Positions 31,324-64,000 of a stretch of DNA of 64,000 nucleotides are shown piece after piece; position 1 is the first letter of the stretch; every line of letters begins with the position of its first letter. This DNA comes from Carya illinoinensis (taxonomy: Eukaryota; Streptophyta; Magnoliopsida; Fagales; Juglandaceae), in NCBI RefSeq assembly GCF_018687715.1, contig NC_056762.1, positions 17,685,364 through 17,749,363 on the forward strand, written 5' to 3'. The position numbers and the translations under genes were made by a program. A model generated the notes under the pieces. It was not told the DNA's origin. It did not search any database and saw only the letters and a program-made list of their open reading frames with translations.

Positions 31324-34300
31324 GTGACACATGATGGGTTCAAAAACATGTACAACTTTGTAAAGGAGGGCAAAACAGTCAAGCTTGCTCCTTTAACTCC
31401 AAGCCAGGTCTATGAAAACCAACTGAAATTGAAAAGTGAGGTTGCTCTGAAAAGAAAGAGTGAAAATGAGAGTGATCAAAAAAGAAAGAGTGAAAATGAG
31501 AGTGATAAAAAAAGAATGAGTGAAAAAGAGATTGAGCAGAAAAGAGAGAGTGATAGTGAAAATGAGCACAATAAAAAGAGTGAAAAAGAAAGTACAGATG
31601 TGGCTGAGAGTAGAGAAAAAAAAGATGAGCCACGAGAGAAAAAGAAAAGAGAGTCTGGAGAGAGGAAAGGAAAGACAAAACTGAGTTTCCATACCAGAGA
31701 GACTGAGGTTAAGAGGGCTTTCTTCGCAGATCGCCCTATGATTTTTCTTGTCTATAAAGAGTCTTATCTTACTCTTGATGACACTCACCAGTCTCTTCCT
31801 AGTTTGGCTATTTCCTTGTTGCAGGAGTTTGATGATGTATTCCCAAAGGAGATGCCTAATGAGTTGCCACCCATTAGAGGCATTGAGCATTAGATTGATT
31901 TTGTACCTGGAGATGCTATTCCAAACCGACCAGCTTATAGGAGTAATTCAGAGGAGACAAAGGAGCTTCAGAGGCAAGTTGAGGACTTGATGAGCAAGGG
32001 GTACGTGAGGGAGAGCATGAGCCCATGTGCAGTACCAGTGCTATTAGTGCCAAAGAAGGATGGGACGTGGAGAATGTGTGTTGATTGCAAGGCGGTCAAC
32101 AATATCACAGTAAAGTATCGGCATCCCATTCCTAGATTAGATGATATGCTTGATGAATTGCATGGCTTGTGTATTTTTAGTAAAATTGATCTTAAAAGTG
32201 GATACCATCAAATTAGAATGAAAGAGGGTGACGAATGGAAAACTGCTTTTAAAAGCAAGTATGGCCTTTATGAATGGTTGGTTATGCCATTTAGACTTAC
32301 AAATGCGCCCAGTACTTTCATGAGATTGATGAACCATGTCCTACGTGCATTCATTGGCAAGTTTGTGATTGTGTATTTTGATGATATTCTAGTGTACAAC
32401 AAGGACTTAAATGAGCATATTGAGTACTTGAGATGTGTGTTTGATGTGTTGAGATGTGAAAAGTTGTATGCTAATTTCAAGAAATGTACCTTTTGCATGG
32501 AAAGAGTTGTTTTTCTTGGATATGTTCTTAGTACAAAGGGTTTTGAGGTGGATGAAGAGAAAGTCAAGGCCATCAAGGAGTGGCCAACGCCAAAGAGCAT
32601 CACTGAGGTAAGAAGCTTTCATGGCTTAGCTAGCTTTTATCGGCGTTTTGTTAAAGACTTTAGCACCATTGCTGCACCACTCACTGAAGTCATTAAAAAG
32701 AATGTTGGGTTTCATCGGAGGGCTACTCAAGAGAATGCTTTTGCCACCATTAAAGAAAGGTTGTGCTCTGCACCTGTGCTAGCATTACCTGATTTTAACA
32801 AAGCTTTTGAGATTAAATGTGATGCCTCAGGTATAGGGATTGGAGCTGTTTTGATGCAGGATAGGCGGCCCATTGCCTTCTTCAGTGAAAAGTTAAGTGG
32901 GGCCTCACTCAAGTACCCTACTTATGACAAAGAGCTTTATGCTCTTGTTCGTACATTGGAGACTTGGTAGCACTACCTATGGCCTAGGGAATTTGTGATC
33001 CACACTGATCATGAATCATTGAAGCATCTCAAGGGCCAAGGTAAGTTGAATAAAAGACATGCTCGTTGGATGGAATACATTGAGACATTTCCATATGTCA
33101 TCTGTTACAAGCAAGGTAAGGAGAACATTGTTGCTGATGCTTTATCTCGAAGGTATGTATTTCTTACTTCTATGAGTGCTAAGATGCTTGAGTTTGAATA
33201 TGTGAAAGACCTATATGCCGATGACGCTGACTTTTCTAATGTGTACATTGCCTGTGATAAGGCGGCATTTGGTAAGTTTTACAAGCATGAGAGTTACTTG
33301 TTTAGAGAAAACAAACTTTGTGTGCCAAGTTGTTCTATGCGTGAATTACTAGTGCGTGAGGCACATGGTGGGGGATTAATGGGACACTTTGGTGTCAAGA
33401 AGACTTTGGACATTTTGCATGAACATTTCTTTTGGCCTAAGATGAGAAGAGATGTCACTCGCATTTGTGGCAGATGCATTACATGTGGGAATGCCAAATC
33501 TAAAGTGTTGCCACATGGGTTGTATATACCCTTACCCGTTCCTAGTGAACCACAGGTCGACATATTTACGGACTTTGTTTTGAGGCTACCTAGGACAAAA
33601 AGGGGTAGAGATTCTATTTTTGTGGTTGTGGATAGATTTAGTAAGATGACACATTTTCTTCCATGCCATAAAACAGATGATGCCACAAACATAGCTGACT
33701 TGTTTTTCAGGGAGATAATGCGACTCCATGGTGTTCCCAGGAGTATTGTTTTTGATAGGGATGTTAAATTCCTTAGCTACTTTTGGAAGGTGTTGTGGGG
33801 GAAATTGGGTACCAAGCTCTTATTTTCTACTACTTGTCATCCGCAGACTGATGGTCAGACTGAAGTAGTTAACAGGACCTTAACTCAGCTTTTACGCACT
33901 GTTGTTCATAAGAATTTAAAAACTTGGGAGGATTGTTTGACATTCATAGAGTTTGCATATAATAGGACCATGCATACTACTAATTCATATTCTCCTTTTG
34001 AAATTGTTTATGGATTCAATCCGCTTACCCCTTTAGATTTGATGCCTTTACCGGTTGATGGCAGGAATAGCTTGGATGGACAAAAGAAGGCGAAGTTGGT
34101 GAAGTCACTCCATGAGAGGGTATGGCTTCAAATTGCGCAAAAGAATGAAAGGGTTGCTTCCCAAGTCAATAAAGGGCGAAGGCGTGTCATCTTTGAACCT
34201 GGAGATTGGGTTTGGGTTCACATGTGCAAAGAAAGATTCCCAGCTCATCGAAGGACTAAGTTGCATCCTCGAGGAGATGGACCTTTCCAAATCCTTGAGA

Positions 34301-34533
34301 AAATTAATGACAATGCCTATAAAGTGGATCTCCCAGGTGATTATAATGTGTCTGCTACCTTCAATGTTTCTGATCTTTCTCCTTTTGATATAGGTGAAGA
34401 TTCGAGATCGAATCCTTTTGAGAAGAGGGGGAATGATGGGAACCAAGGCAGGCCTACTCTTAAAGATCCTTTGCAAGTTCCAGATGGGTCAATTACAAGA
34501 TCGAGAGCCAAGAAGATCAAGGAAGCAATGTAA
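31324..34533 (+). pseudogene. pol of element E: reverse transcriptase, RNase H and integrase
   Basis: One frame throughout, broken only by TAG at 31891 and 32968. A Lys/Ser/Glu-rich linker (31430-31680, KRKSENESDQ-type repeats) precedes RT. RT has [31 protein letters not shown] and the active site VYFDDIL (YFDD at 32374-32385). RNase H has [13 protein letters not shown]. Integrase has an HHCC-type zinc module ([26 protein letters not shown]), catalytic DDE positions in [14 protein letters not shown] and [12 protein letters not shown], and a C-terminal module ([13 protein letters not shown]). The last 100 bases (NDGNQGRP to IKEAM) lie inside the 3' LTR. A TRSRAKK tail replaces a recognisable chromodomain, which could mean a CRM-related lineage. 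Confidence 0.93.
34421..34433 (+). other. Polypurine tract of element E
   Basis: AGAAGAGGGGGAA ends exactly where the 3' LTR begins (TGATGGGAACC at 34434). It lies inside the pol frame. Equivalent tracts precede the LTRs at 46840, 50786 and 63247. Confidence 0.85.
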
Positions 34534-35033: not shown

Positions 35034-38000
35034 TTACATAGCTTCAACAGCAACAAGATGCCTAATACAAACTGGAATTTCCTCTAGATCATACTGATCA
35101 CCCTCACCTAAAAGGGCATCCTTGGCTAGCTTATGTGCCACCATATTAGCTTCTCTTTTAGTATGACACACAGACCAGGACACGAATGACCTTAGGACAT
35201 TTCTAGTGTCTTCCACCATCAGGCCTCCTGTGCTCCTGTTTTCGACTGAACTTTGCAGCTTCTCTACAACCTGTAAAGAGTCACCTTCTTGCATTAGATC
35301 AATAAACCCTGCTTCTTTACTGAAGAGCACTGCCACCATCAAAGCATAAGCTTCTGCCTCGAAAGGGGAGAGTGACAGATTCCTTCTGGCTCTTAGAGTC
35401 GCTAGCACCTCCCCATTACAATCTCTGATTATGCCCCCCATTCCTACTAGACCCCTCGTGACATCCATGGCAGCATCCCAATTGAGCTTATATTTACCTT
35501 CTGGAGGTTTAATCCACTTCACATGAGGTCTGACACCCCTGTAGACCCCAGTTGATGGTTTGTTCTGAGCTTCCCTGAAGCACCTCAGATCACCTGCTGC
35601 GTTTTGGATGATTGAGTTTGGGTGTCTGAGAGCTTTCCCATACACAAAGTCATTTCTTCTAGTCCAGATAAGTCTAGCTATCATGCCTGCTTCTTCCATT
35701 TCAGCTTGGGATAATCTCTCTCTCATCTGGGACCACACTTCCCTGAAGCATGGCTCATTGGCAGTCATCTTTTGGACTTGTCTACTGGCTTGTCCCCATA
35801 CATCACGAGCAGCTTCACAGTCCCAAAGTGCATGGCTTGAGGTCTCCTCCTGCATATGGCATACTGGGCACATCCCGTCCTCTCTGATCCTCCTTCTATG
35901 CAGGTTACCATAGGTGGGCAAAGCCTCACTGCAGGCCCTCCAAAGGAACATCCTCACCCTACTAGGCAGGTTCATTTTCCACACATCTTTCCAGAATCCC
36001 TCTCGGTTCAGGTTCCTTGATGTACCCCCCTCCAGATTTGCATGTAGCTCCCTGTGTAGATAGTAGGCACTTCTCACTGAAAAAATACCATTTGAGGTTC
36101 CACCCCATCCCAATCGGTCCTCTCTGCCACCTAAACTGACAGGGATGGTTTTAATGACATCCACAGTATCTTGTGAGAATAGATTGCAAAGGGTATTTTC
36201 ATCCCACTTCCTTAGCACTGGATCTGTTAGCTCCTTCACTAGAGTTTCAGTCGGCCTCTCATTTCTGTCAGGATTTGAGGAGAGGAAGTGAGGTCTTGGC
36301 AGCCACCTGTCTTCCCATATCCTGATTTTAGCTCCATTGCCCACCTTCCATAGGAGACCCTCCCTCAGAATCCCAATCCCTGCTTTCAGGCTTCTCCAAA
36401 CCAGTGAAGGTCTATACCCCATCTTAGCTTCTAAAAAGGACCCTTGACCATAGTACTTCTGTTTCAGAACTTGGGCAGGCAGGCTTTCAGGTCTAGTTAG
36501 AATGTTCCAACCTTGTTTTGCTAGTAGAGCCAAATTAAAACTCTTGAAACTCCTGAATCCCATACCTCCTTGGTCCTTAGCCCTGGCCAAACTTTCCCAC
36601 CTGATCCACTGAATCTTGGTATGCTTCTCATCAAAAACCCACCAGAACTTCCTTAAGAGTTGGTCCAGTCTACAAACTATAGATTCAGGTAGAAGGAAAA
36701 TGCCCATAGTGTAGGTGGGAATTGCCTGTAGGACAGATTTGAGTAGGACCTCTTTACCTGCTATGGAAAGCAATTTGGTTTTCCAATTAGTGACCCGAGC
36801 CCAAACCCTATCAATAAGTCCATGGAAAGCAGCTGTTTTTGCTCTCCCCACCATGGCTGGAAGGCCTAGGTACTTCTCAAAGGAGCCAGTAGCTGGGATA
36901 CCTGCAATTCTCAGGATGGTTTGCCTATTTTCTGTTGGAGTATTCCTACTAAAAAATATGGATGACTTTTCCTTGTTGAGCAGCTGACCAGAAGCATTCT
37001 CATACTGACTCAAAATCCTCATAAGTCTGCTCCATTCTAGGGAATTGGACTTGCAGAAAATCATACTGTCATCTGCAAAGAAAAGGTGGCTGACCTTGAT
37101 AGGGCCTCTTCCCACTGGTACACTAGAGATGCTTCCTTCTCTTTCTGCCTTGTGAAGTAGATTTGATAAGGCTTCTGCACATAGAATAAAGAGGTAGGGG
37201 GAGAGGGGATCCCCTTGCCTTAGCCCCCGGGTTGGCTTGAAAAGAGGCTGTGGTTCACCATTCAGCAGGATTGAATATGAGACTGAGGAGATGCACTCCA
37301 TCACCAGCGAGATAATTTTCCTATCAAACCCCAGTTTTGCCATTACTGCAGAAATGAAAAGCCACTCCACTCGGTCATAGGCCTTGCTCATATCGAGTTT
37401 GAAAGCCATAAAGCCAGACTTCCCATGCAGCCTTGTAGGCATTGAGTGGAGAGCTTCATAGGCCACCAAGATATTGTCGGAGATGGTTCTACCTGGAACA
37501 AAGGCACTCTGGTTTTGAGAGATGATGTTAGGCAGAATGCTCTTGAGTCTGTTAGCAATAACCTTAGCTACTACTTTGTATGAAACGTTACACAAGCTTA
37601 TAGGTCTGAAGTCAGCAACTCTTTTGGCATCTTTAACTTTTGGGATAAGGGTAATGAAGGTGTTATTGACCTCCTCTAGTTGTCCCCCTTCATTTAGAAT
37701 ATTGAGAGCAAACTCAGATACCTCCTTCCCAACCAATTCCCACTTAGTCTGGTAGAATAGTGCAGGAAAACCATCTGGTCCTGGTGACCCCAAACCATTC
37801 ATCTGAAAAACAGCTTCTCTAACCTCCTCTGCAGTAAACACCCTTGTCATCACTGTGTTCATTTCAAAAGTGACTTTTTGAGGCAAGGCTTCTAGGCATT
37901 CCTCTATTCCACAGGGTCTCGAGGATGTGAATAATTCAGTGAAGAAGGAGGAGAGTATGGACGCTATTTGTTGCTTCCCAGTGACCAAGTTACCTCTGCA

Positions 38001-38312
38001 GTCAAGTATTTCCTGAATTCTGTTTGTCTTTCTTCTTTGGGTGGCATGAAGGTGGTAAAATTTTGTATTTTTGTCTCCCATTTTCATCCAGTGTTGTTTT
38101 GCTCTTTGCTTCCACTTTAGGTCCCCCTCAGCTAATGTTGATTCAATCTCACTCTGTAACTTAAGCACGTGTGACAATTGATCCCCACTTCCCATTTCCT
38201 GTAATTCACCAAGCCTTTTCATTTTTTCCTTGATCTCATTAGGTGTTTTCCTGTTCTCTGTTGAACTCCACCTTCTCAAAGCTGAACTACAGTTCCTGAG
38301 TCTGCTAGACAT
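35034..38312 (-). pseudogene. LINE ORF2 part 2: reverse transcriptase, zinc-binding region, RNase H (1092 aa open)
   Basis: In frame with the endonuclease across the single TAG. RT shows FRPISLCNVSYKVVAKVIANR, QSAFVPGRTISDNILVAYE, KLDMSKAYDRVEW, GLRQGDPLSPYLFILC and the catalytic FFADDSMIF (about residue 408). Then come the thumb (KEVLLKSVLQAIPTYTMGIF, KFWWVFDEKH), a zinc-binding segment (CPVCHMQEETSSHALWDCE) and an RNase H domain (LNWDAAMDVTRGLVGMGG, EAEAYALMVAVLF, EGDSLQVVEKL, NMVAHKLAKDAL). With the endonuclease it makes about 1370 codons, full LINE length. The single stop means it probably inserted fairly recently. Confidence 0.93.
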
Positions 38313-38321
38313 CCTTGCAGT

Positions 38322-39146
38322 CTAACTAACACCAGGGGCCTCCATTCTCCACCCTTCCTTAATAGAATGGTCACACCCTTCCCTTAAGTTCCATGCAGCT
38401 TCAAATCTGAACATTCTGATCTTGCTATTTCCAGTCTTCCATTTGCAGTCTAAGCAGATGTTCAGGGGTGAGTGGTCTGACTTGACTGTAGGTATGACCA
38501 TACAGGAGGCATCTCTAAACATATGTAACCAGGCTGGATTTCCCAAGGCACGGTCCAGTATTTCTTTGGTATGACTCGGTCCAGTTCTATTGTTTGACCA
38601 CGTGAATATTGGACCTTCTGTCCTAATCTTGTTCAAGGAACACCACTCAAGAGATTCTCTGAACACCTCCATTTGTCTATAGGGTCTGGGGGAACCTCCC
38701 ACCTTCTCTGCCTGACAAGTAATTTCATTGAAATCACCACTGTAGAGCCAAGGTGTTGAGTCCAGGGGTTTAAGTTCTTTAAGGAATTCCCAGCTACCAC
38801 CTCTTTTTGAGGTTTCTAGATGGCCATAGAAACCTGTGAAGAGCCAGGTTTGGTCCCCTACAAAGCTCGAGACATGGGCATTGATATGCCATCTAGAATA
38901 GTTGTAGATGGACACCATAGTGTTGGTTTTCCACATTAGAGCCAAGCCACCTGCACTTCCTCTACTTTCCACTACCAGGCAAGCCTCAAACTTCAAGCTT
39001 CTTCTAACTGCTTCCACTCTTTCTTTTCCACACTTTGTTTCCATGAGGAAGATCATGGATGGGCTCTTTTCCTTAACCAAGAGTTTAAGGAAGCTAACTG
39101 TCTGAGGGTTCCCAAGCCCTCGGCAGTTCCAGCTTAAAAGGTTCAT
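38322..39146 (-). pseudogene. LINE ORF2 part 1: apurinic/apyrimidinic endonuclease
   Basis: A 274-residue frame starts MNLLSWNCRGLGNPQTV. It has MIFLMETKCG (catalytic Glu), SGDFNEITCQAEK (Asp/Asn), FTWSNNRTG and TVKSDHSPLNI (Asp/His), so all main APE motifs are visible. It nicks target DNA to start reverse transcription. It ends at one in-frame TAG (38322-38324), after which the same frame continues into the RT part. Start and motifs agree with full-length plant LINEs. Confidence 0.92.
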
Positions 39147-39450
39147 TTGTCTTGGCAGGGCTGTCTTGCAGCCTCTGCCATGTGTTGATCATCACACGAT
39201 AGGCCTGGTTGGCCTCAGACCTCCTAAGGGTTATTCGTGATCTTTTAGTCCCTTGGGTGTTAGAGATGTCACCCAATACAGCACTACTAGCTCTCTTTCT
39301 TGTTGGTTCAATTGAATCATCAGGATGTAAAGATTTGGCTAGTTTTGTTTCACGAGCTTTTCTTTTCCAGGTGGTCTTCCTTGTTGTTATCGAGTAATTT
39401 GACTGAACTCCCTGGTCTTGTTTACTTCTACTCAGATTCTTTGGCCACTT
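39094..39450 (-). pseudogene. LINE ORF1 C-terminus (truncated)
   Basis: The minus strand reads TTRKTTWKRKARETK, then GDISNTQGTKRSRITLRR and ANQAYRVMINTWQRLQD. The TTWKRKARE segment matches the ORF1 tail of the LINE at 52851-61216 (TTWKRKAREVTLPNP). It overlaps the ORF2 start in another frame. Confidence 0.8.
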
Positions 39451-39675
39451 GTTATCAAAGGTAAATCACAACCTTTGTGGCGTTCCTCCTCGTAATTTGG
39501 GTTCTTGAGACGGGATTTCAACGGGTCTAGATTTTGATATAATCTAGGTTCTTGAAACGAGTTCTCAACGGGTCTAAATTCTCCATCCGTAGACTTGAGT
39601 TTGGCATTCTTGGCTAAGTTTTCAAATTGATTATGGGTTCAAGGGATTCTCTTCCCGCAGGTTCATATCAAGGAT

Positions 39676-44523: not shown

Positions 44524-45566
44524 GTTGAAAAACAATTGTGAGGCTGAGAGTTCAAAAAATATGTTGAAAAAAAGAGTGAAAGAAAAAAAGAGTGTAAAAA
44601 AAAAATGACAGCGAAAAGAAAAGTGAGAGTGAAAAAAGTGAGAGAAAAATAGAGAGAGAAATGAGTCTTTATACTAAGGTAAATTTTAATACTAACAAAC
44701 TTAACGTACCTTTGCCTAGTATTGTTGTTTCTTTGTTGCAGGGATATAAGATCATGATTCCTACTGGTGTGTTTAGTGGATTGCCACCTATTAGAGAGAT
44801 AGAGCATTACATTGATTTTGTGCCGGGTGTGACATTTACTAACCAACCTCTCTTTCAAGAACATGAGTCCTTGATACACTTGAAGGGACAAGGTAAGTTG
44901 TTGACTAGAATGCATGCTAAGTAGGTCGAATGTATTGAGACATTTCCTCATGAAATCAAATACACACATGGTAAGGAAAATCTTGTGTTTGATGCATTAT
45001 CAAGAAGGTTTGTCCTTGTCTTCATTTTGGATGCAAAGTTATTGAGACTTGAATATGATAAGAACATGTTTGTTAATGATGATGGCTTGGCTAGTGTGTA
45101 TGGAGTACGTGAGAAAGCATCGTTTTCTCATTTATATAGACTAGATTGGTACTTATTTAGAGAGAAAAGACTTTGTATGCCTACTAGTCTTATGTGTGAG
45201 TTGCTTGTGCGTGGATGTAGTCTGTTGGGAAATTTTGATATAAAAAGGACTTTAGACGTGTTGCATGACCATTGGTGGGAGTACTACTTGCCATTCATTA
45301 AGTTTGCATATAGTTGGAGTGGTTACTTTGGTATAAAGAATATTTTAGGCATATTGCATGAACACTGGTGGGAGTAGGCCTGTGCAAAATACCCGTTGGG
45401 CCGCTTAACCTGCACAACCCGGTTGGGTCGAACCTGCTAAAATCGGGTTAGGTACATGTCGAACCCCGTTGGGTCGAACCCGCTCACACGATATCCATTT
45501 TCAGTCCAATTTCTTTTTCTGGTCGTTTCTCGAGAAAATTCTTCTTGCATCAAATTTTTTTGGGTC

Positions 45567-46019
45567 ATGGAAACGGGGGGAAAGGTGAAGAGAGGTGCTG
45601 CAGGGAGGAAGGGAGGCGGTCCTGAGAAGAAACCTGTGTCCCGGTCCGTTAAAGCCAGTCTGCAGTTCCCCGTTGGACGAATCGGCTGGTACTTGAAGAA
45701 AGGCCGTTACTCTCAGCGTGTGGGCATCGGTGCTCCTGTTTACCTCACCGCTGTACTCGAGTACCTAGCCGCTGAGCTTTTGGAGTTGGCTGGAAATGCC
45801 GCAATAGACAACAAGAAGAACAGGATGATCCCAAGGCACGTGCTACTGGCCGTGAGGAATGATGAAGAGCTTGGGAAGCTTCTCGCTGGTGTGACCATTG
45901 CGCATGGAGGTGTCCTTCCCAACATCAATCCCGTCCTTCTGCCGAAGAAGCCTAACAAGGTTGCTACCAAAGAGCCCAAGTCTCCATCTAAGGCCACCAA
46001 GTCCCCTAAGAAGGCCTGA
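45567..46019 (+). CDS. Histone H2A (H2A.W type) captured by a hAT-like element, 150 aa, intronless
   Basis: The frame is intact from [17 protein letters not shown] to stop 46017-46019. The histone fold is clear: [86 protein letters not shown]. Acidic-patch residues (LEY..AAE.LE and NDEE) are kept. The tail [13 protein letters not shown] has the SPKK-like motifs of plant H2A.W, which marks heterochromatin. Length matches H2A.W. Deviations from the usual plant sequence include Trp for Arg after GRIG, Ile for Thr in GTGAPVY and Ile for Arg in AARDNKK. Only about 190 bases of the element lie upstream, so expression is uncertain. It may be a retained functional copy, but more likely is a decaying capture. 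Confidence 0.88.
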
Positions 46020-46026
46020 CCCTAAG

Positions 46027-46155
46027 AAGGCAAGCGATATGGGCAAACTCAATCGCCTGGTTATCCCAAAGTAGCACGCCGAAAACTACTTCCCGCTGGA
46101 CGACTCCACCAACGAGAAGGGACTCCTTCTCAACTTCGAGGATCGAAACAGGAAA
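46027..46155 (+). pseudogene. Captured fragment of a B3-domain transcription factor gene
   Basis: The + strand reads ASDMGKLNRLVIPK, one in-frame TAG (46072-46074), then HAENYFPLDDSTNEKG and LLLNFEDRNRK. This is the N-terminal half of a B3 DNA-binding domain of the NGATHA/RAV/LAV type, where GKLNRLVIPKQHAE is near-invariant; the stop sits at the Gln codon. The rest of the domain is absent. It follows the H2A stop by only a few bases and is in another frame. A 12-bp repeat CCCTAAGAAGGC (46004-46015 and 46020-46031) marks the junction. Confidence 0.87.
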
Positions 46156-46839
46156 TCTGCAAATGAACGTATGGAAAGCAGAGTAAAGAACGGGTTCGAC
46201 CCGATCCTTATTTTTTTGGTCGGGTCGATCCGCATCCGTGAGGCTTTTCCTGCGGGTCGGCCCAAAATCTGGGCGGGCCGGATTGTTGTGCAGGCCTAGG
46301 TGGGAGTATTGTTTCTCATTCATTGAGTTTGCATATAGTTGGAGTGGTCACTTTGGTGTAAAGAAGAGTTTAGGCGTATTGCATGAACACTTTTGAGAGT
46401 ATTGTTTACCATTCATTGAGGTCACATATAATTGGAGTGGTCATCTTGGTGTAAGGAAGATTTTGAATGTGTTTCAAGAATGTTTGTGGGAATATCATTT
46501 TCCTTTCATTGACTTGTTGCATAAACATTTGCGGGAGTATTGTTTGCCCTTGTTAGAGTTTGCATATAATAGGACCATGCATACTACCATTTTTTATTCT
46601 CATCTTGAAATTGTATATGGTTTTAATCCCCTTACTCCGTTAGTATTGATGTTTTTGCTTGTTGATAATAGGAATGGCTTGGATAGACATTTTCACATTC
46701 TTGAGAAAATTAATGATAATTCATATCAAGTGGATCTTCTAGGTAAGTACCATATTTCTACGACTTTTAATGTTTCTGATATTTTTCCCTTTGATCCAGG
46801 TGGAGATTCGAGAACGAATCCTTTTGAGGAGAGGGGGAA

Positions 46840-49440: not shown

Positions 49441-50785
49441 TGAGGTTGATAAAAAAAAGAAAGAGAGAAAGTGAGATTGATAAAAAAAAAAGAAAGAGTG
49501 AAAGTGAGATTGAGAAAAAAAGAAATAGTGAGGCCAAAACCTCAAGAGAAGGAGAGAGTGAAGAAAAAACAGAGAGTGAAAAGAAAATAGAAAGTGAAAA
49601 GGAAAAAGAAAGTGAAAAGAAAAATGAGAGTGAAAAAAATAAAGAGACTGAAGAAAAAGAGAGAATGAAAGGAAAAGAGAGAGTGAAAAGAGAAGAGATA
49701 GTGCAGAAAATGAGAGGAAAACAAAAAAAAAATGAGTTTTTATACAAGGCAAGTTTTAATACTAACGAACTTAACGTACCTTTGCCTAGTATTGTTGTTT
49801 CTTTGTTGCAGGAATATAAGGTCGTGATTCCTAACAGTGTTTAGTGGATTGCCACCTATTAGAGAGATAAAGCAATACATTGATTTTGTGCCAGGTGCGA
49901 TAATCCGTACCCGACCTTTTTTGAAGAACATGAGTCTTTGATACACTTGAAAGGACAACGTAAGTTGACTAGAATGCATGTCAAGTGTGAGGAATATATT
50001 GAGACTTTTTCTCTTGTAATCAAGTACACACACGGTAAGGAAACTTTTGTGGCTTGTGCATTAGCAAGAATGTATGATGATATCGTTATTTTAGATGCAA
50101 AGTTATTGAGATTTGAATATGACAAGAAATTGCATGCTAATGATGATGACTTTGCCAGTGTGTATGGAGTACATGAGAAAACATCGTTTGGTAAGTACTA
50201 TAGACTAGATTGGTATTTGTTTGGAGAGAATAAACTTTGTGAGCCTACTAGTCTTATGCGTAAATTGCTTGTGCATGGATGTGGTTTGTTGGGTCATTTT
50301 GGTGTATAAAGGATTTTAGATGTGTTTCATAAATGTTTGTGGGAGTATTACTTTCCATTCATTGAGTTTGCATATAATGGGAGCTATATATTTGGTGTAA
50401 AGAAGATTTTTGACGTGTTGCATGAACGTTGGTGGGAGTACCATATACCATTCAATGACTTGTCACATGAACACTTGCGAAAGTATCATATGCCATTTAT
50501 AGAGTTTGTATATAATAGGACCATGCATACTACTACTTCATATTGTCCTTCTGAAATTGTTTATGGTTTTAATCCATTTATTCCTTTTGATTTAATTCAT
50601 TTACCTGTTGATGACAGAAGTAGCTTGGATGGACATTTCCAAATTCGTGATAAAATTACGATACTTCATATCTAGTGGATCTTCCAGGTAAGTATCATGT
50701 GTTTGCTATTTTCAATGTTACTGATCTTTTTCCCTTTGATCCAGGTGGAGATTCGAGGTCGAATCCTTTTGAGGAGAGGGGGGAA
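49440..50785 (+). pseudogene. G: linker, RNase H end and integrase remnants
   Basis: A Lys/Ser/Glu-rich linker (49440-49730) leads to FNTNELNVPLPSIVVSLLQ. The sequence skips RT and goes to EHESLIHLKGQRKL. LGHFGV and FHKCLWEYYFPFIEFAYN show the same zinc-module/core junction as F1, in about three diverged units. It ends [22 protein letters not shown] and the integrase tail, with [14 protein letters not shown] in a shifted frame. Several stops and frameshifts. No RT active site and no DDE triad. Confidence 0.87.
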
Positions 50786-52888: not shown

Positions 52889-53674
52889 TTAAAAGGGGCC
52901 ATGATTACATGGTGTACCATAGACCAGTTCAGTCGAGTTCACAGCTAACATTAGAGATTCTTTGGCTAGTACATGAGCACAGTGATTACCACTCCTCCCA
53001 ACAAAAACCACAGACCAAAGACTAAAACTAGAGAGAATACTCTTAGTGTCAGATAAAAACATGCCCACATTATCGCCGCTGTCTAAAGGGAGATTGAGAC
53101 CATTAACAACCTGTAAGGAATCCCCTTCAAAGATAACAGAAGTGAGACCCATCTCCTTGGCCAGGGAAACCGCATGAAAAGCACCTATAGCTTCAGCCAG
53201 CAGAGGTTCAGGAAAGCAAGAAATGGAGAGCTTTTTGCTGATCATAACATTACCCACTTGGTCTCGAGCCACCAGTCCAATACCAATTCTATTGTTAGGA
53301 CCATCCACAGCAGCATCCCAGTTAATTTTCGTGACACCTGATGGAGGGGGAGACCACATGGATGCTTGAGAGTGGATCTGAGCCTTTGTCTTCCAGTTCT
53401 CTTGGGCAGTCCTATAATCAGTCAATGATTGTGAAGCCTGATTTACTAACAGACTTGGATGCACAAAGGACCCCTCGAAGATCATCTTGTTTCTTCTAGA
53501 CCAAATGCTCCTGGCTAACACAGAAAACTGTTCCATTAAGCTTTGATCACACTGACTATATAGGCTCTCGAAAAGCTCTTTGAAATTGGCTTTCCTTAAA
53601 GAACTTTTTTGAAACACTATATGGCCTTGACTCCCTCCATACATCCATAGCAGAAGTACATTCCCACAGTGCAT
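52889..53674 (-). pseudogene. LINE ORF2 part 3: RNase H domain
   Basis: The minus strand reads GHIVFQKSSL, ARSIWSRRNKMIFEGSF, then KINWDAAVDGPNNRIGIGLV, LAEAIGAFHAVSLAKEMG, VIFEGDSLQVVNGLN and GNHCAHVLAKESL, a plant-LINE RNase H with D, E and D positions. It is separated from the preceding part by a frameshift near 53630. Confidence 0.9.
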
Positions 53675-53687
53675 GAGTTGTGGATTC

Positions 53688-54467
53688 CTATTCCCTACGA
53701 CAGATGGGGCATATAGGGGAGTCTACTATCTTCCTCTTAGATAGGTTGAGCATGGTTGGAAGAGATTCCAGGCAGGCCCTCCAGATGAAAATCTTAGTTG
53801 CATTAGGGATCTGCAGCTTCCAGCATCCTGTCCAAACTTCCTTGTTCTGTATTCCTCTAGAGGATTGACCCTTAAGTTGTTCCATGGACTCTTTCTGCAA
53901 ATGATAGGCAGACTTGACTGAGAAAGATCCATCTTTGGTGCCCAACCAAATGAGTCTGTCGTTGGCACCAGAAAAACTGATAGGAATTCTTTGAATTAAA
54001 GAAGCTGTATCAGGCCCAAAAAGAGCTGTGGTTAGACCTCTATCCCATTGTTTTGTCTCATTATTAATGAGTCTTGCCACCACTTCATTCTCAGGAAATA
54101 GATGGACAGGGCTTTGGATTTTGTAACTAGAAGGTTGGGGCAACCATCTATCTTTCCAGATTTTGGTTCCTAGACCATTACCTATGCGCCATAGTGACCC
54201 TTTTTCAACCAAACCTCTTGCAGCCTGAATGCTTCTCCATAAGAAAGATGGTCTAGAGCCCAACTTGGCTTGAAAGAAATCCACATTTGGGAAGTATTTC
54301 AGCTTGAGGACTTGAGCAGCTATAGAGTCAAGATATTGAAGAAGTCTCCACCCCTGCTTGGCCAGTAGAGCCAAATTAAAGCTCTCAAGGTCTCTATAAC
54401 CCAGACCTCCTCTAGTTTTCGATCTACCCATCTGTCCCCAAGACACCCAATGCACCTTTTTTTTCAT
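53688..54467 (-). pseudogene. LINE ORF2 part 2: thumb and zinc-binding region
   Basis: KKKVHWVSWGQMGRSK, GGLGYRDLESFNLALLAKQGW, FLWRSIQAARGLV, IGNGLGTKIWKDRWLPQ, and the first cysteines of the zinc region (PICPICRRE). It is in a different frame from part 1 because of an indel at the A8 run near 54458-54465. It ends at an in-frame TAG (53688). Confidence 0.9.
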
Positions 54468-57000
54468 TTTGGAGATGACCCCACCAAAACTGGTTCATAA
54501 CTTTGTTGATCTCACCTAGAAGGGATTTGGGGAGTTTAAAAACTCCCATGCAGTAGGTAGGGAGGGCTTGAACCACTGCCTTGAGGAGAATATCCTTCCC
54601 TGCCTGGGATAGAAATTTGTTTTTCCAGTTACTGACTTTTCCCCTGACTCTATCTAGTATGCCCTTGAAAGCAGCATATTTAGATCTGCCTATGAGATTT
54701 GGGAGACCCAAATACCTTTCATAACAAGAGGAGGCTCTTGTTTGAGCAAGACTCAAGATGTACTCCCTAGTTGCTGGTCTTGTATTAGGACTAAAATAGA
54801 TCGAGGTTTTAGACTTGTTGAGCTTCTGACCTGAGGCCTCCTCATAGAGATTTAGAATAACCTGGATTGAAGCCCATTCTCTTGCATTTGCTCGACAGAA
54901 TAGGAGGCTATCATCAGCAAACAAAAGGTGGTTAATGCTAAGCCTCCCCCTGCAGATAGGAAAGCCCTGGATGAGCTTGGTGGTTTCAGCATGGTTCAGA
55001 AGGCTGCTAAGGACCTCAGCTACCAGAATGAAAAGGTAGGGAGAAAGGGGGTCCCCTTGTCGAATCCCTCTTGATGGAGAGAAATTGCCTTGAGGTTTCC
55101 CATTAATAAGTGTGGAGTAGGAGATTGTAGTTACACACTGCATTGTCAGAAATATCCATCTTCTGTTGAAACCCATTTTAGCCATGACCTTTGCCAAAAA
55201 CTCCCATTCCACCCTATCGAAGGCCTTGCTCAGGTCTAGTTTTATGGCCATGTAACCTTGTTGCCCTTTGCCTTTGATGGACATGGAGTGCAAAGTTTCA
55301 AAAGCCACAATAACATTATCCTGAATCATCCTCCCCTGAATAAAAGCACTTTGAGTGGGAGCAATGATCGAAGGAAGGATCAACTTCAGTCTATTAGAAA
55401 GAGTTTTAGAGACCACTTTGTAAATGACATTGCAAAGAGATATTGGTCTGAAGTCCATAATTGTTTGAGGGTTTTTAACTTTCGGGATTAAAACAATATA
55501 TGTTTCATTTATGTGTGAAATTTCCCCATTCCCATTTAGGATATCCAACACTGCTTTAGTGACCTCTTCTCCTACAACATCCCAGTGAGATTGGTAAAAT
55601 AATGCAGGAAAACCATCTGGACCAGGGGCACCCATGGGGTTCATTTGGAAGAGGGCAGACTTTACCTCCTCAGCTGTGAACTGTTTGGTCAGGTTGGAGT
55701 TCATCTCACTATTAACTCGGTGATGTACTTGGTTCAAACAGACATCAATGCTGTTTGGAGATGCTGAAGAAAAGAGCTCCTGGAAATAAGTGGTAAACAT
55801 AGAGGAAATCTCACCTATGTCAGTTGTGATAAGGCCATCATTTCTTACAAGCTTCTGAATGCTATTGTTTTTCCTCCTCTGATTAGCGCACTTGTGGAAG
55901 TAATTTGAGTTCCTATCCCCGTCTTTAAGCCACATCTGTTTAGCTCTTTGCTTCCATTTCAGATTTTCTTCTTCAAGGGCTTTATCAATCTCCTTGTGAA
56001 GAGCCTTAACTTCAGCTGTTCTTGAACCAGTGTTAGAGTCTTGCATTTCCAGGAGCCTGTTCAATTGAGCTTGGATATCCCTCTTATGTTTCCATAAGGT
56101 TGAGCTCCAGTTTTTTAGGGAGGCCTTACATCTGTTGAGCTTCCTCAGGACTGAGTGGATATTATAAACTTGTTGAGAATCCTGATGGGACCAGCAGGAT
56201 TTAATAATGCTATTGCATGCTTCATGAAGATTCCATCTTGCCTCAAATCTGAAAATTTTCTTTCTTGTAGGAACTAAATACAGCTCCCTTCTTCCTCTTT
56301 TGTTTGCAGATATCAATAAAGGGCAGTGGTCAGATGTTTGGGCAGCAAGAACATTGAAATTGTTTTCATTAAACATACTAGTCCATAGCATGTTTCCCAA
56401 TGCTCGATCCAGTCTTTCTTTAGTGAAATGTGTTCCCATTCTATTATTGCACCAAGTGAATTTGGGTCCTACAAAGCCTAGGTCGCTCAGGCCACACCAT
56501 TCCATGGATATTCTAAAGGCTTCCATCTGAGAGTAAGGTCTGTTAGCTCCTCCAACCTTTTCATGATTATGCAAGATTTCATTGAAGTCTCCAAAGCACA
56601 GCCACGGTATGTTCTCTGCAGGTTTAATCAGTTTCATCAGGTTCCAACTATCCCCCTTTCTAGCTGATTCAGGGAAGCCATAAAAGCCAGTGAGAAGGAT
56701 CTGTTGACATTCCTCTGCTAATCTGAGTACCATAGAGATATGGTTTTGTGAGTAGTTTTCTAGTGTTAGATCTAATGTGTCCTTCCACAGAAAAGCTAAC
56801 CCGCCACTAGGCCCTCTACTGTCAACCACAAAGCTGTTCTCAAAATGCAACATGTTCCTTACTACCTCAGCCCTTTTCCTACCACACTTGGTCTCCACAA
56901 GGAAAATAAAATGGGGGCACTTTGTCCTCACAAGGAGGTCTAGCTCTCGAACTGTACGGGGGTTCCTAAGCCCCCTACAGTTCCAGCTAAGGCCTATCAT
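54424..57000 (-). pseudogene. LINE ORF2 part 1: endonuclease and reverse transcriptase (858 aa open)
   Basis: Starts MIGLSWNCRGLRNPRTV. APE motifs: FLVETKCGRKR, CFGDFNEILHNHEK, FTWCNNRMG, QTSDHCPLLI. RT motifs: FRPISLCNVIYKVVSKTLSNR, QSAFIQGRMIQDNVIVAFE, IKLDLSKAFDRVEWEF, GIRQGDPLSPYLFILV, and active site LLFADDSLLF near residue 693. Domain order and length fit plant L1-type ORF2. The start codon overlaps the ORF1 stop in ATGA. The frame shifts at the A8 run at its end, so the full protein cannot be made without correction. Confidence 0.93.
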
Positions 57001-57914
57001 GGCTGTGGGTGGGGCTGCCCAGCAGCCTCCACCATCTTATGATTGGAGCTGTTTTCATACTTGTCATTAGTATCTTTAGCTTTTTTCGCAGGTTTTGATA
57101 AGTCTAGTTGAGAGGTCATACCTCTTTTCTTGCTTCCTCTGCCTTTAGAGACCGTGTCCCTAGGATTAGGTAGTGTAACCTCCCTGGCCTTCCTTTTCCA
57201 TGTTGTCCCTTTTTGCCTAGTCACCACCCCCACAATACTGGGCAATACCAATTCTTTGTTGACATTGGCTTGGGACATCTCCCTTCCCAAGTCTGATGGA
57301 GATTTGCAGAGGTCATAATGATGCATCTGGTTAGAGGTAATCTCTTCCTTTTCGGCTGAGATTGGTAGCTTAATGGGCCGGTGGATTGGAGTATAAGCCT
57401 CAGTCATAGGATCTATAAGTGATACAGTATTTTGGGTAGACTCAGTTTTAGTTTTAGCAATTCCCTCTTTAGATTGAGGGTCAGATGAGGTCCTGGATAC
57501 CTCTTCTCCCTCCTTATCATCAACATTTGGTTCACATTCATTATCCTTAGTAGTCTCATGTTTCTGCCTGTTCTGTTGGTTCTAAGAGCCAGGGTTGCCC
57601 CCATATGGTCGACTGTCAAAAATCTTTGAGTTCATCGGTTGAGCCCTGAGCCAGGGGCCAAATTGCAAAGTTTTAGTTCCATCCACAGAAGAATGTACCC
57701 TCTGTTGATTGCAGTTTTTTCCTTTATGAGCAATGATGCCACAATGAAAACAGTAGGCCTGAAGTCTCTTGTACTTAATGGAAACCCAGTGTTTCATGTT
57801 ATTCACTTCCACCCATTTTCCACGTAAAAGTGATTTGTGTAGGTCTACTACCACTCTTATCCTCATACTCTTGCCCCAAGCAGCACCATCCGAATCAGCA
57901 TCCACCCTTATAAC
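56997..57914 (-). pseudogene. LINE ORF1 3' part: zinc knuckle and basic tail
   Basis: VDADSDGAAWGKSMRIRVVV and LRGKWVEVNNMKHWVSIKY lead to the CCHC knuckle CFHCGIIAHKGKNC. A Lys/Arg-rich tail follows (TTWKRKAREVTLPNP, KKRGMTSQLDLSKPAKKAK). One in-frame TAG (57582-57584) breaks it. It ends TGA at 56997-56999. It binds the LINE RNA. The solo LTR at 57915-60536 separates it from the ORF1 start. Confidence 0.9.
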
Positions 57915-60536
57915 TGATTGAGCTGAAATATTGCATGTTTTAGCTATTTAAAACCAATGTATTTTAAATTCTTCGTGACACTATTATTGGTTTTAGATAA
58001 AAAAAATGATTAATAAGCATAAATACGAGTTGTGAATTTTAATTGATTGATATCATGTTTATGCTTAATTATGATTTAATGAGACAATATTTCCTCACAT
58101 ATATAGTCTGTTTTTGATAATTTATTTATTTTGAGTGCTATTTCTTTCTTCTTATTTTCAGTTTAAATAAAATTCAAAAGAGATCCGGTTGGAACTTATG
58201 ATAAAAAATGCATACTAATTGAGAGGAAGCTTGGCAGCTGAAAAAGCACAAAATGAAGAATCAATGGTTATTTTCTCCCTTTGATCATTCAAGATGCATG
58301 TGACTCATGGTTGAACAAAACTCACGGATTGAAATTTTGGTGGTGCAAAGATTGTGTATATTCGGTGCATGATCTGCTAGAATTGTGCTGGAAAGAGAAG
58401 TTGAAAGAAGAAAGGCTGTGGAATAAAATGTGAAATTAAATGATTCTTCAAGATCCACGATGTTCGGCTATTGATTTTTCTGCTATAAAAAGAAAGGACG
58501 ACAAGAAAGAAACATGGGGTCGGTGAGAGTGGCTTGAGAGGAAAGTATGTGAAAAGAAAGGAGGGAGAGGTTACGTGGGAGATGGAGGTGGAAAGCAATT
58601 GATGTGGGTTAGCTGAAGTGCAGGAGAGAGTATAGACGTGTTGATTGATTAGTGTCGGTTTCATCCAAGTCGTGATTGAAGAAAGGGATGGAGACAAGGA
58701 GGTGTAGAGTGAAAGGGATAGGTGCAGAATTTTCGTGAGATAGGAATTGAGAGAGAGAAGGAGCTAAGATGAAGGAGAGTGGGTGAGCAAAACCAATGGT
58801 GCTGGAATTTTAAAGTATTAATCTGATTACATAATGAGGCATATGTATATATATATAATGCTGGACGACAAAGAGATAGAAAAGGGAAGAAAGCATGGGC
58901 AGACACATGGGGACACGGAAAGAGAGAGAAGTGAAAGCAACCGGTGTAGAGTGAAAGGTGAGAGAATTGGAGGGAGGAATCGGTGAGAAATTTACGTAAG
59001 AGATATAGGAAAGGGTGAGAAAAAGTGAGTAGAGAGGGAGAGTAATGAGTGGAAGGGAATTGTGTTAGCTGAACGTGGGCCCCTCATTAAAGAATCATTA
59101 AAGAAAAGAAGGTGAGATATTGGTTGATAGCCGAGTTGAAGGAGTGAAATGCTGAAAGTGAAAGAAAGCATCAATGCATGAATATAGGGAGAGATTGAAG
59201 GAGTGATGTGTGGGGTCGGTTTGGTAGAGAAAGAAAGTGCCGATTGGTTTAAGAAAGGAAAGAAAGGAGGAGATAGAATCCTTCTAGCTGGAGAAGGGAA
59301 CGTGGAACCGGAATTGAGGAAATTGATTGATTCTTCAAGAGGCAGCTAGTGGAGTAGTTGGCTGGGATTAATTATTCAATGCATGATTTGAGAGGGACCA
59401 ACCGGTGGATGCAAGATTAGAGAAAACAACCAATCAAATGATTCTTCAAGAGGCAAGTGGATGTTTCGGCTCTTGAATTTTTTTTCTATAAATTGAGACC
59501 GGTTGAGGAGTTAAGGGACAACACATTTGAGAGAGAAGTGGGGGAAGAGACAAGTAGGGAGAGAAGGCTGAAATACCACTCATGTTCGGCATTTTTTTGG
59601 CTGAAATCTTTAGTTTTTGTTCGGCAGTTTTTTTTGTTGCAATGCTTTGTTGTTTTAGAGTTTTTATTAAGTGTATTAATATTTGTTCTAGAATTGTATT
59701 TCATTAAGTATAATACCTTAATTTCCATTAAGTTACTAGTTTGTTTCATACAATAAAAGGAATTGTTTTAGAAGTTCTAAATTAATTGTGTTACTTTAAT
59801 TTATTGCAAGAAAGATTTGATTTTAAGCTTTTGTTTTTGTTTTTGATTTTTCTGAATATCATACGTGAAGAGTAGAGGAATTGTTATAGAGTTTTTATTA
59901 AAGGTTTAGAGATTAATTTTCAAGAGTGATACGTAAGAAATTGTTCCTTTTCGTTTCGAATTTCAATCGAATCGTGAAAGGACGTTTTCGTTTAGATTTT
60001 TCATTCCCTATTTTATTTAACTTCAGTTTAAAGTTTATAGAATACTTTTGAGTTTCTGTTTACTTATTTCGTGTTATTTATTTTTCTTACTTCTTTAAGT
60101 TTTCATTTAATAGTGATTACAACTGTTATGTGTTATTTTGAGAATTCGTGATTTAATTACAAAGATGAATTCTAAAATCTTGGTTTTGGGTATTTTAAAT
60201 TTTCCGTTCATGTTTTGTCAATTACTTTCTAATTTAGTTTAATGCTTAATTTAGTTTTATTAATTTCTGAGTTTAATTTATTAGTCTTTTACATTCCAAT
60301 CCAACAAACAAAAAATTCAAAAGATATGAATCTAGTCCATGACTAGTACCCTTTTCCATCCATTGCATATACCATCATTTTATTTTCTCTTTGTGAAGTT
60401 TTTCACAATTTTTTAACAAGTTTAATTTTAAGCAACTTTTCCCTGAGGAGACGATCTAGGAATTTATTCCTAATTATTACACGACATCCTCCTGCACTTG
60501 GGATAGCATTAGTGCTACTCATTTTTGAGTGAGTCA
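57915..60536. mobile_element. Solo LTR (2.6 kb) inserted in the LINE ORF1
   Basis: TGATTGAGCTG at the left, TTGAGTGAGTCA at the right, flanked by exact ATAAC duplications (57910-57914 and 60537-60541). Removing the insert and one copy joins ORF1 in frame: GHVI is followed by RVDADSDG. The interior is AT-rich (GAGA-rich at 58500-59500), with no gag or pol. The right end CTGAGGAGACGATC... TGCACTTGGGATAGCATTAGTG resembles other plant LTR termini. Confidence 0.9.
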
Positions 60537-61198: not shown

Positions 61199-63246
61199 AC
61201 CCACAAATATGAAAACTTTAACTGTATCTTTTTACTCACATATCGATTGATGCGATTCTTTATGAATTGGAAAGCTATCTTCAAGGAACTTTGTCTCTAA
61301 TAAGGATTTCCAAATTCGAACTCCTGAAGGTCGTACGTGACTGACAAGATAAGTCCTAAAATTTAGGCGATTTTTTTTTATGCGGAAATTAAGAGGACAT
61401 TAGGGTTTCTTTCCTACCCTATATAAGTATATCATTAGCACGAAATGGAAGGGAGGAGGCACAAGAGGCAGATTTGAAGAGAGGAGAAAATCACTTCCAT
61501 GGCCACCATTCACCTCAGTTTTCTATGGAGATTTTTGTTGTCCAGTATATTTATGGGTAACTAAATTCTCAAGTAGGGTTAGGGATGAACTTGCACATTA
61601 GATGGTATTTATAATTTATTTTTAATTCATGTATTTGATTTTCAATTGCTAAAACTCTTTTATTTTATCATTCTCAATTCATCATTGATGTTTTCTTCTC
61701 CGAATAATCATAGAATTTATTCTGTTTATGGATTCAGTCATGCCTTTTCTATTGAATGGATTAGTTCTTTGATTATGTTTGGATCAATTATTTATCTATA
61801 TTGATTTAGTTTTTTTGCTGCAATATCGCTCCCTGAGTATATTGTTGTCTTTGGATTTTCTCAATAGGGGTAGTAATTTACGTATTTTAAAAGTGGTGAA
61901 TGTTTTTTCAAATGGTTAAATTTGATTTAATTTTGGTTTATAAATCTATACCTTCCGATTGGAAATTTTGTAAATTGAGTTCCTAATCAAGTTATCCAAT
62001 GAATTAAGAATAATTAAAATACCAGATTTGTGCAAGAGATTCCCGATGCTCTACTGTTCGTCAAATTTGCGTATTTTTTCCGTTAATCACATTGCTTCAC
62101 TTAAATTTACATTTAAAATTAATCTTTATTCTCCATTACTTATTTAATATTTTTCTTTAGTTTTTTTGTTCCTCTTGCTTTTCTTTTAATTTGTCTTCTT
62201 GTGGAATCGACACCCCAAAGCTGTGCTATAACTACCGCATTATTTTTTGGGCGTAAACAGCATCAAATTGATTTTGTGATAGCATTCTAGAATTGGCGAC
62301 ATTACCTTTGGCCAAAAGAATTTGTCCTGCATACTAAACATAAGTCTTTGATGCACTTGAAGGAATAAGGTAAGTTGTTTACTAGAATGCATGTTGAGTG
62401 GGAGGACTGTATTGAGATTTTTTCTCATATAATCAAATACAGATATGGTGAGGAAAATTTTATGATTAATGCATTAGCAAGAAGGTACGAGCTTATCTTT
62501 ATTTTAGACGCAAAGTTATTGAGATTTGAATATGAAAATAATTACATGGTAATGATGATGACTTTGCTAGTGTATATGGAGTATGTGAGAAGGCATCGTT
62601 TGGTAAGTGTTATAGATTAGATTGATAATTGTTTATAGAAAATAGACTTTGTGAGCCTACTGGTCTTATGCATTAGTTGCTTGTGCATGGATATAGTTTG
62701 TTGGAACATTTTGGTGTAAAGATGACTTTAGACATGTTGCATTACCATTGGTGGGAGTATTGTTTCCCATTTATTGAATTTGCATATAGTTGGAATGGTC
62801 ACTTTAGTATAAAGAAGATTTTAGGGCGTATTGCATGAACACTTTTGGGAGTATGGTTTGCTATTAATTGAGGTTGCATATAATTGGAATGATCATTTTA
62901 ATGTAAGGAAGACTTTAAATGTGTTTTATGAACGTTTGTGGGAGTATTATTTGCCATTTACAAAGTTTGCATATAATAGGACCATGCATACTACTACTTC
63001 ATATTCTCACTTTAAAGTTGTTCGTGGTTTTAATTTACTTACTCCTTTAATTTTGATGCTTTTGCTTGTTGATTACAAGAATAGCTTGGATAGACCTTGT
63101 CAAATTCTTGAGAAAATTTATGATACTTTATATCTAGTAGATCTTCCAGGTAAGTATCATGTGTCTGTTATTTTCAATATTGCTAATCTTTTTCCCTTTG
63201 GTGCAGGTGGAGATTCGAGATCGAATCCTTTTGAGGAGAGGAGGAA

Positions 63247-64000
63247 TGATAGGCTCCAAGGTGGATCAAGTCTTAAAGATCCATTGCAACTTCAAAATGA
63301 AGCAATCACAAGATCGAGAGCTAAGAAGAGTAATAAAGCAATTGGATTGGTGTAATCTGAGACGTGTCTAGCAAGAGCCTAACATTCAAAATGGGCTTGA
63401 AGGATGAAGAAACAGTTTTGATTCATTTGATATAAGTTCTGGAAGATGGCAACAACATGACTTAAAGGCTTTGGACACTTTGAGGCTTTAAACTTGTTTA
63501 ATTCATTTAAATGACTTATTTTATTAGTTTAGTTTAGAATAACTGAGTTTATTATGAGAAGGCTTTAAGGACATGTTGAAAAATTTATTATTTTGTTGAA
63601 CTAAAGTGGTTTTAAGATGGTTACTGTAGTGTGGAACTATTCACTTAGGGATATTTTTGGAAGATGTGACCTTATTTTGGCTTAGGGTTAGTTTTGTTGG
63701 GGAGTATTTAAACATCTTTGACTGCCCACTTCAAGTTTAGACAATATTGAATTTTCATTGTGAGTTGAGTTTACTCATCTGGTTTTTTTATTGAACTTTT
63801 AAACTTATCAGATGTAAATCACAACATTTGTGATGTTCTTCCATATAATTTGAGTTCTTGAGACAGATTCTTCAACGGGTCTAAATTTTAATATAATCTA
63901 ATGTTCTTGAAACGAGTTCCTCAACAGATCTAGATTTTTTAATCCATTAATTTGATTTTAACTTTTTGAATAAGTTTTTAAATTAATTGTGAGTTCAAGA
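63247..64000 (+). repeat. 3' LTR of H, running to the window edge
   Basis: It is preceded by the purine tract GAGGAGAGGAGGAA and starts TGATAGGCTCCAAGG. It follows E-family LTR order to GTGAGTTCAAGA at the edge, where related LTRs have about 25 more bases. The end and any target duplication lie outside the window. Confidence 0.88.

Follow-up and report, generated by a model that had tools for sequence, protein, structure and literature searches.

We found in the pecan (Carya illinoinensis) genome a Pack-hAT transposon that carries a whole, intron-less H2A.W histone coding region next to part of an NGA-type B3 gene, and its relatives elsewhere in the genome indicate that the histone sequence was inserted into B3 cargo that the element already had. 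Pack-type elements are held to shuffle genomic pieces of genes, whereas the cargo in pecan includes an entire histone coding region without its intron. The whole history that we propose, namely a Pack-hAT with B3 cargo, then an RNA-derived H2A.W insert, deletions and transposition, is probably correct. This grade covers the whole history including the RNA-derived insert, and it overlaps with that of a LINE-type explanation discussed below, which shares the RNA origin. The case suggests that cut-and-paste transposons can also gain genes from spliced messenger RNA. As the nested capture is ordered by sibling copies, the mechanism of capture becomes testable. The element lies in a window of 64,000 nucleotides (C11:17685364-17749363), by which we mean the whole stretch of DNA that was analysed, and the genome comprises 674 Mb in 17 contigs. 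The coordinates of the features are collected in Table 1.

Table 1. Features of the pecan Pack-hAT and of its insertion site, in window positions
Feature	Position	Strand	Remark
Whole element: non-autonomous Pack-hAT, 924 bp, without a transposase frame	45375..46298	+	Full-length siblings on C8 (L009) and C1 (L010)
Target site duplication GGTGGGAG, left copy, 8 bp	45367..45374	n/a	
Target site duplication GGTGGGAG, right copy, 8 bp	46299..46306	n/a	
Left end: terminal inverted repeat TAGGCCTG and subterminal GGGTCGAACCCG-type repeats	45375..45486	+	
Right end common to the family, terminating in CAGGCCTA	46151..46298	+	
5' UTR of the donor H2A.W gene	45482..45566	+	First base 34 bp below the beginning of the TATTAAA in the donor
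H2A.W coding frame, 150 codons and TGA, intron-less	45567..46019	+	ATG at 45567, TGA at 46017-46019
CCCTAAGAAGGC, copy of 46004-46015, at the H2A/B3 join	46020..46031	+	4 bp of donor sequence past the stop, and slippage or filler
NGA-type B3 gene fragment, part of the B3 domain	46031..46155	+	TAG at 46072-46074 only in the window copy
Host DNA: one ~93-bp repeat unit of a decayed Ty3-type element	45274..45366	+	Resumes at 46307, giving the empty site

The first-pass annotation had described a hAT-like element with exact 8-bp duplications, inverted ends and no transposase, possibly belonging to a small multi-copy family, and these points hold. GGTGGGAG flanks the element on both sides, the TAGGCCTG and CAGGCCTA ends are present in all three full copies, and no transposase-sized frame is found among the open reading frames of the element. 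Both ends recur in the genome, with siblings carrying and lacking H2A, and the first ~87 bp of the left end recur in a wider hAT family. The element search of the genome gave at least 59 matches with 40 of the 108 candidates scored, so that copy numbers are lower bounds. One full-length sibling is located at C8:6778974-6779915 (L009; 96% identical, duplication matching at 7/8 bases) and another at C1:38965238-38966185 (L010; 95% identical, 8/8). Sixteen elements were checked for duplications, which agree at all eight bases in 12 elements, at seven in three and at one in a single element (L021, whose right end was extrapolated). The hAT target preference is nTnnnnAn. T is found at position 2 in 9 of 14 duplications and A at position 7 in 10 of 14 (L021 and L028 omitted; left copy taken where the two copies differ). 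The window element fits a non-autonomous hAT of the Pack-TYPE kind, with class II ends around host gene sequence and without a transposase, and it would be mobilised in trans.

The insertion site gives further information about the duplication. Joined together, both flanks and one duplication align without gaps to the adjacent ~93-bp repeat units, and the element is nested in a decayed Ty3 retroelement. GGTGGGAG occurs eight times in the window against 1.4 expected, and three of these eight occurrences are in the repeat units around the element, which makes the duplication weak evidence when taken alone. The terminal 15-mer is at chance level, having two matches in the window with up to 3 mismatches against 1.94 expected. 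A chance duplication was nevertheless rejected, and the hAT reading kept, because siblings with other duplications exist. Decayed Ty3-type elements are seen at 45212-45376, 46299-46494, 50310-50675 and 62825-63355. They contain an in-frame repeat of ~31 amino acids (93 bp), which seems to occupy the place of the integrase core in the more intact Ty3 element at 32971-34533, and they are perhaps a non-autonomous subfamily. The window also has two long sets of LINE-like frames on the minus strand (35034-39465 and 52889-57947), which are possible sources of reverse transcriptase.

The wider hAT family seems to capture repeatedly. L020, a member of the same family, has fragments of a glycosyl hydrolase family 17 gene at 1024-2113. 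A different cargo, which looks captured, is common to L019, L022, L023, L025 and L026 (in L019 it occupies the element from base 739 onward); when two of its pieces, one from L019 and one from L022, were compared with Pfam, neither matched. In L015 (2028-2182), a right end that is 92% identical to element bases 776-924 is joined to DNA unlike that of the other elements, and no match to the left end occurs within the fetched stretch.

The 150-codon H2A frame with an SPKK-type tail, recognised earlier from the letters of the window, was confirmed as an H2A.W. It contains the Pfam H2A domains, has KSPSK and KSPKK in its C-terminal tail, and has Arabidopsis H2A.7 and HTA6 as its nearest solved relatives. 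The donor (L011) at C10:34588650-34589533, on the minus strand, consists of two exons separated by a 338-bp GT-AG intron. This intron is exactly absent in all three window-type copies, where its position falls after codon 70, between 45776 and 45777. When the genome was searched with the H2A segment, 24 matches were obtained from 20 of 20 scored candidates, and only the three window-type copies span the intron position. Outside these elements and the donor, 17 of 18 matches start or stop no more than six bases from it, and a C13 paralogue, one of those loci that was inspected, has an intron at the same position. In a relative on C2, the H2A sequence stops 5 bp short of the intron position (the match overruns that position by 8 bases through alignment run-on), so that this relative is uninformative on whether the insert was intron-less from the start.

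On the 5' side of the H2A segment, a pattern search found six TATA-like sites in the kilobase upstream in the donor; the nearest is the TATTAAA 34 bp above the segment start, and the next is at -300. The segment start is thus close to the donor messenger start as predicted from a TATA-like motif, which is supporting but not strong. On the 3' side, the H2A sequence ends with TGACCCT, 4 bases past the stop, and is followed by the rest of a 12-bp repeat and then by B3. This CCCTAAGAAGGC repeat, located at the join near the stop codon, looks like template slippage. The H2A insertion lacks a poly(A) tract, a 3' UTR and a long target duplication, and only 3-4 bp (CAAG) are doubled there. The divergence from the donor (Jukes-Cantor) is 0.01-0.03 for H2A and 0.05-0.08 for B3, indicating that H2A was acquired later.

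The donor of the B3 cargo was found as well. The first-pass annotation had placed the N-terminal half of a B3 factor 20 bases after the H2A stop; the piece is indeed present, but it begins at ~46031, and only 11 bases separate it from the stop. At the DNA level it matches an open B3 gene (L016) at C11:33.04 Mb with 94% identity over 125 bp, and L017 with 86% over 117 bp, while its 51-residue translation is under the Pfam cut-off (E 0.025, 15 bits vs 30.1). The donor L016 is open over 446 codons from stop to stop and belongs to a family that we take to be NGATHA. The in-frame TAG of the window copy is CAG in both siblings. In the C2 relative (L012), the B3 segment is 93% identical over 446 bp to L016. 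The 5' part of the B3 piece is found in five places only (5 of 5 candidates scored), which are the C2, C9 and C6 relatives, the donor and a paralogue. The element thus carries parts of two unrelated host genes, as had been proposed, and these map to separate parental loci on different contigs. An ordinary chromosomal locus with H2A next to B3 was rejected as a source, since one donor is on C10 and the other on C11, and the two sequences were not found together outside the elements (20 of 20 and 5 of 5 candidates scored). In the DNA fetched around the donors (5.5 kb for L011 and 6.4 kb for L016), matches to the element are confined to gene parts and include no element ends. Capture of the B3 piece from RNA is unsupported: the captured 5' stretch has an apparent 3' splice site (CTTGCAG). 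No clear TATA box was seen at a distance fitting the B3 capture. Judging from these sequence features, genomic capture of the B3 piece is as likely.

The relatives of the element give the order in which the two cargoes were loaded. In the C9 and C6 relatives, ~560 bp of the B3 gene are unbroken and H2A is lacking. In the C2 relative, B3 runs as far as ...GTGACTCCAAG and is followed by H2A, which extends from GCTCACACG to CTAGCCG, and by the right end. The window type has the left end, H2A from the same GCTCACACG start to TGACCCT, the rest of the 12-bp repeat, and B3 from CAAGCGAT. The C2 relative and the window type therefore show opposite sides of one B3 breakpoint, and they are most simply explained by a single insertion that preceded two different internal deletions. 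The ends of the C2 relative are 95.0-97.0% identical to those of the three window-type copies, compared with 83.4-86.0% for the ends of the C9 and C6 relatives. The H2A coding substitutions that all three window-type copies share are without exception missing from C2, which means that C2 branched early or, less simply, that it was loaded separately at the same point. An undeleted ancestor with the whole B3 piece and H2A was not found in this assembly (20 of 20 and 5 of 5 candidates scored).

These comparisons show that a hAT element gained ~560 bp of an NGA-type B3 gene, a stretch that starts upstream of the ATG and reaches into the B3 domain. An intron-less copy of the H2A.W messenger would then have entered this B3 cargo, at the site marked by the breakpoint, with an extent from approximately the messenger start site to 4 bases beyond the stop codon. 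The route that we prefer, with moderate confidence, is that a break in the element was repaired on a spliced H2A.W RNA or cDNA template, primed by short homology. Two internal deletions would have generated the window type, in which the 5' half of B3 is lost, and the C2 type, in which the 3' part of H2A and the rest of B3 were removed. The distinct duplications show that the window type moved to three chromosomal sites.

Three other origins of the insert have to be weighed against this RNA-templated repair. Genomic H2A.W might have been captured together with its intron by template switching during gap repair, and the intron might later have been deleted exactly through a direct repeat. AGGT is shared by both splice sites of the donor intron, so an exact DNA deletion could mimic intron loss; the lack of poly(A) at the insert agrees with this origin, and template switching at short homologies is an accepted account of Pack elements, according to PMC8277862. 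This explanation demands, however, that exactly one pair was used among the 1154 direct-repeat pairs of the segment (at least 4 bp long and at least 100 bp apart), and it gives no reason for the coincidence of the segment start with the predicted messenger start. We regard it as unlikely. A similarly doubtful explanation is that a LINE-type processed pseudogene of H2A.W landed by chance in the B3 cargo of the Pack-hAT. An intron-less H2A with an apparently complete 5' end would be expected of such a pseudogene, and LINE-like frames, by our own reading, are present in the same window. The insert nonetheless has neither poly(A) nor 3' UTR, its target duplication is only 3-4 bp long, and on the 3' side it ends 4 bases after the stop, with a slippage-like repeat of 12 bp.

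The model of Gisby and Catoni for Pack-TYPE elements, in which two adjacent hAT insertions mobilise the intervening DNA, is very improbable for the history as a whole. It has been proposed for Pack-TYPE elements, and local pairs were counted for maize hAT (as reported in PMC8903248); it could still hold for the first capture, that of B3. The location of the donors on different contigs largely refutes it for H2A, and the H2A sequence interrupts the B3 segment. The surroundings of both donors, which resemble the element in gene parts only, also speak against it.

We then considered whether the element-borne H2A.W could be a functional gene under selection, for example one acting on transposon chromatin. 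The 150-codon frame is kept in all three copies (the stop is TAA in L010), and public pecan gene models (P0058, P0063 and P0121) match the copies. Since the copies split, 14 nonsynonymous and 2 synonymous changes have accumulated, with a neutral expectation of 73% nonsynonymous by site count (p = 0.26), and purifying selection on the frame was rejected as unsupported by these substitution counts. Between the donor and the common state of the copies, 2 nonsynonymous and 4 synonymous changes are seen, too few to judge. Seven amino-acid changes are private to the window copy (K20E, R41W, A61T, V71L, R80I, I87M and D130N), and six of them hit residues that are identical in all ten other aligned H2A proteins. 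Moreover, the segment starts at the 5' UTR, so that the donor promoter was not captured. A working gene is thus hardly credible. The H2A frame is probably open because it is young, and it is best read as young and neutral rather than as a working gene of the transposon. Beyond what the first-pass annotation had noticed, the comparisons of sequence thus indicate that H2A lacks the intron of its donor, that its insertion took place in B3 cargo which a Pack-hAT already carried, and that its frame is without a sign of selection.

Transposon cargo apparently stands among the public pecan gene models, and the case therefore bears on annotation. The H2A frame of the window is 95% identical to the Carya illinoinensis protein P0058. 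Both P0058 and P0063 carry S31 and I54, which are marks of the element copies and not of the donor; compared by eye with the C8 and C1 copies, they show one and three residue differences, and they are probably transposon cargo. The C2 relative contains a frame of 248 residues (L012:1979-2722, minus strand), in which the N-terminus of B3 is followed by the translated 5' UTR of H2A and part of H2A, and which continues through the right end of the element. It is 100% identical over 248 residues to Carya illinoinensis LOC122301598 (P0121). All three public proteins, as far as their sequences tell, appear to be transposon cargo.

In general terms, breaks in class II elements may be patched from spliced host mRNA or cDNA, which would deliver an intron-free coding region from start to stop that is then amplified. 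We put this forward tentatively, with slightly more doubt than belief. If true, patching of this kind would add a third way of capturing genes to the two already considered, genomic gap repair and mobilisation by neighbouring elements, and in one derivative it would have yielded the in-frame B3::H2A fusion that figures among the annotated genes.

The kind of element is known, as Pack-hAT elements within the Pack-TYPE transposons have been described in maize and rice (Gisby and Catoni 2022, PMC8903248). The words intron, cDNA, mRNA, histone and retro are absent from the main text of that paper, and the pecan element differs from the Pack-hAT elements described there in having a complete intron-less coding frame inside an earlier capture. 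In a literature search at the level of titles and the openings of abstracts, none was found to report that a plant hAT element had captured the spliced mRNA of a histone or of another host gene. The animal Pack-TIR elements (Nat Commun 2021, PMC8277862) resemble the pecan element in their class II ends around host sequence and in short homology at the breakpoints, and hAT is the commonest superfamily among them, with 208 of 370 as given in that article. As described there, intron-less captures of multi-exon genes were excluded as a control for retroduplicates, and this is the class to which the pecan H2A belongs; screens of this design would overlook such cases. The same article mentions the retrogene ARF6, almost wholly captured in a MER20 element, for which recurrent retroposition is an alternative account. 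Like retroposed gene copies, the pecan H2A shows an exact loss of the intron and a 5' end near the predicted messenger start. Unlike them, it has no poly(A), 3' UTR or long target duplication, and it was carried onward by a DNA transposon. The CACTA transposases offer a further parallel, being intron-less genes in a class II element that PMC4158355 attributes to cDNA, with intron loss mediated by reverse transcriptase proposed. In the CACTA case, the gene is the element's own transposase, whereas in pecan it is a captured host gene.
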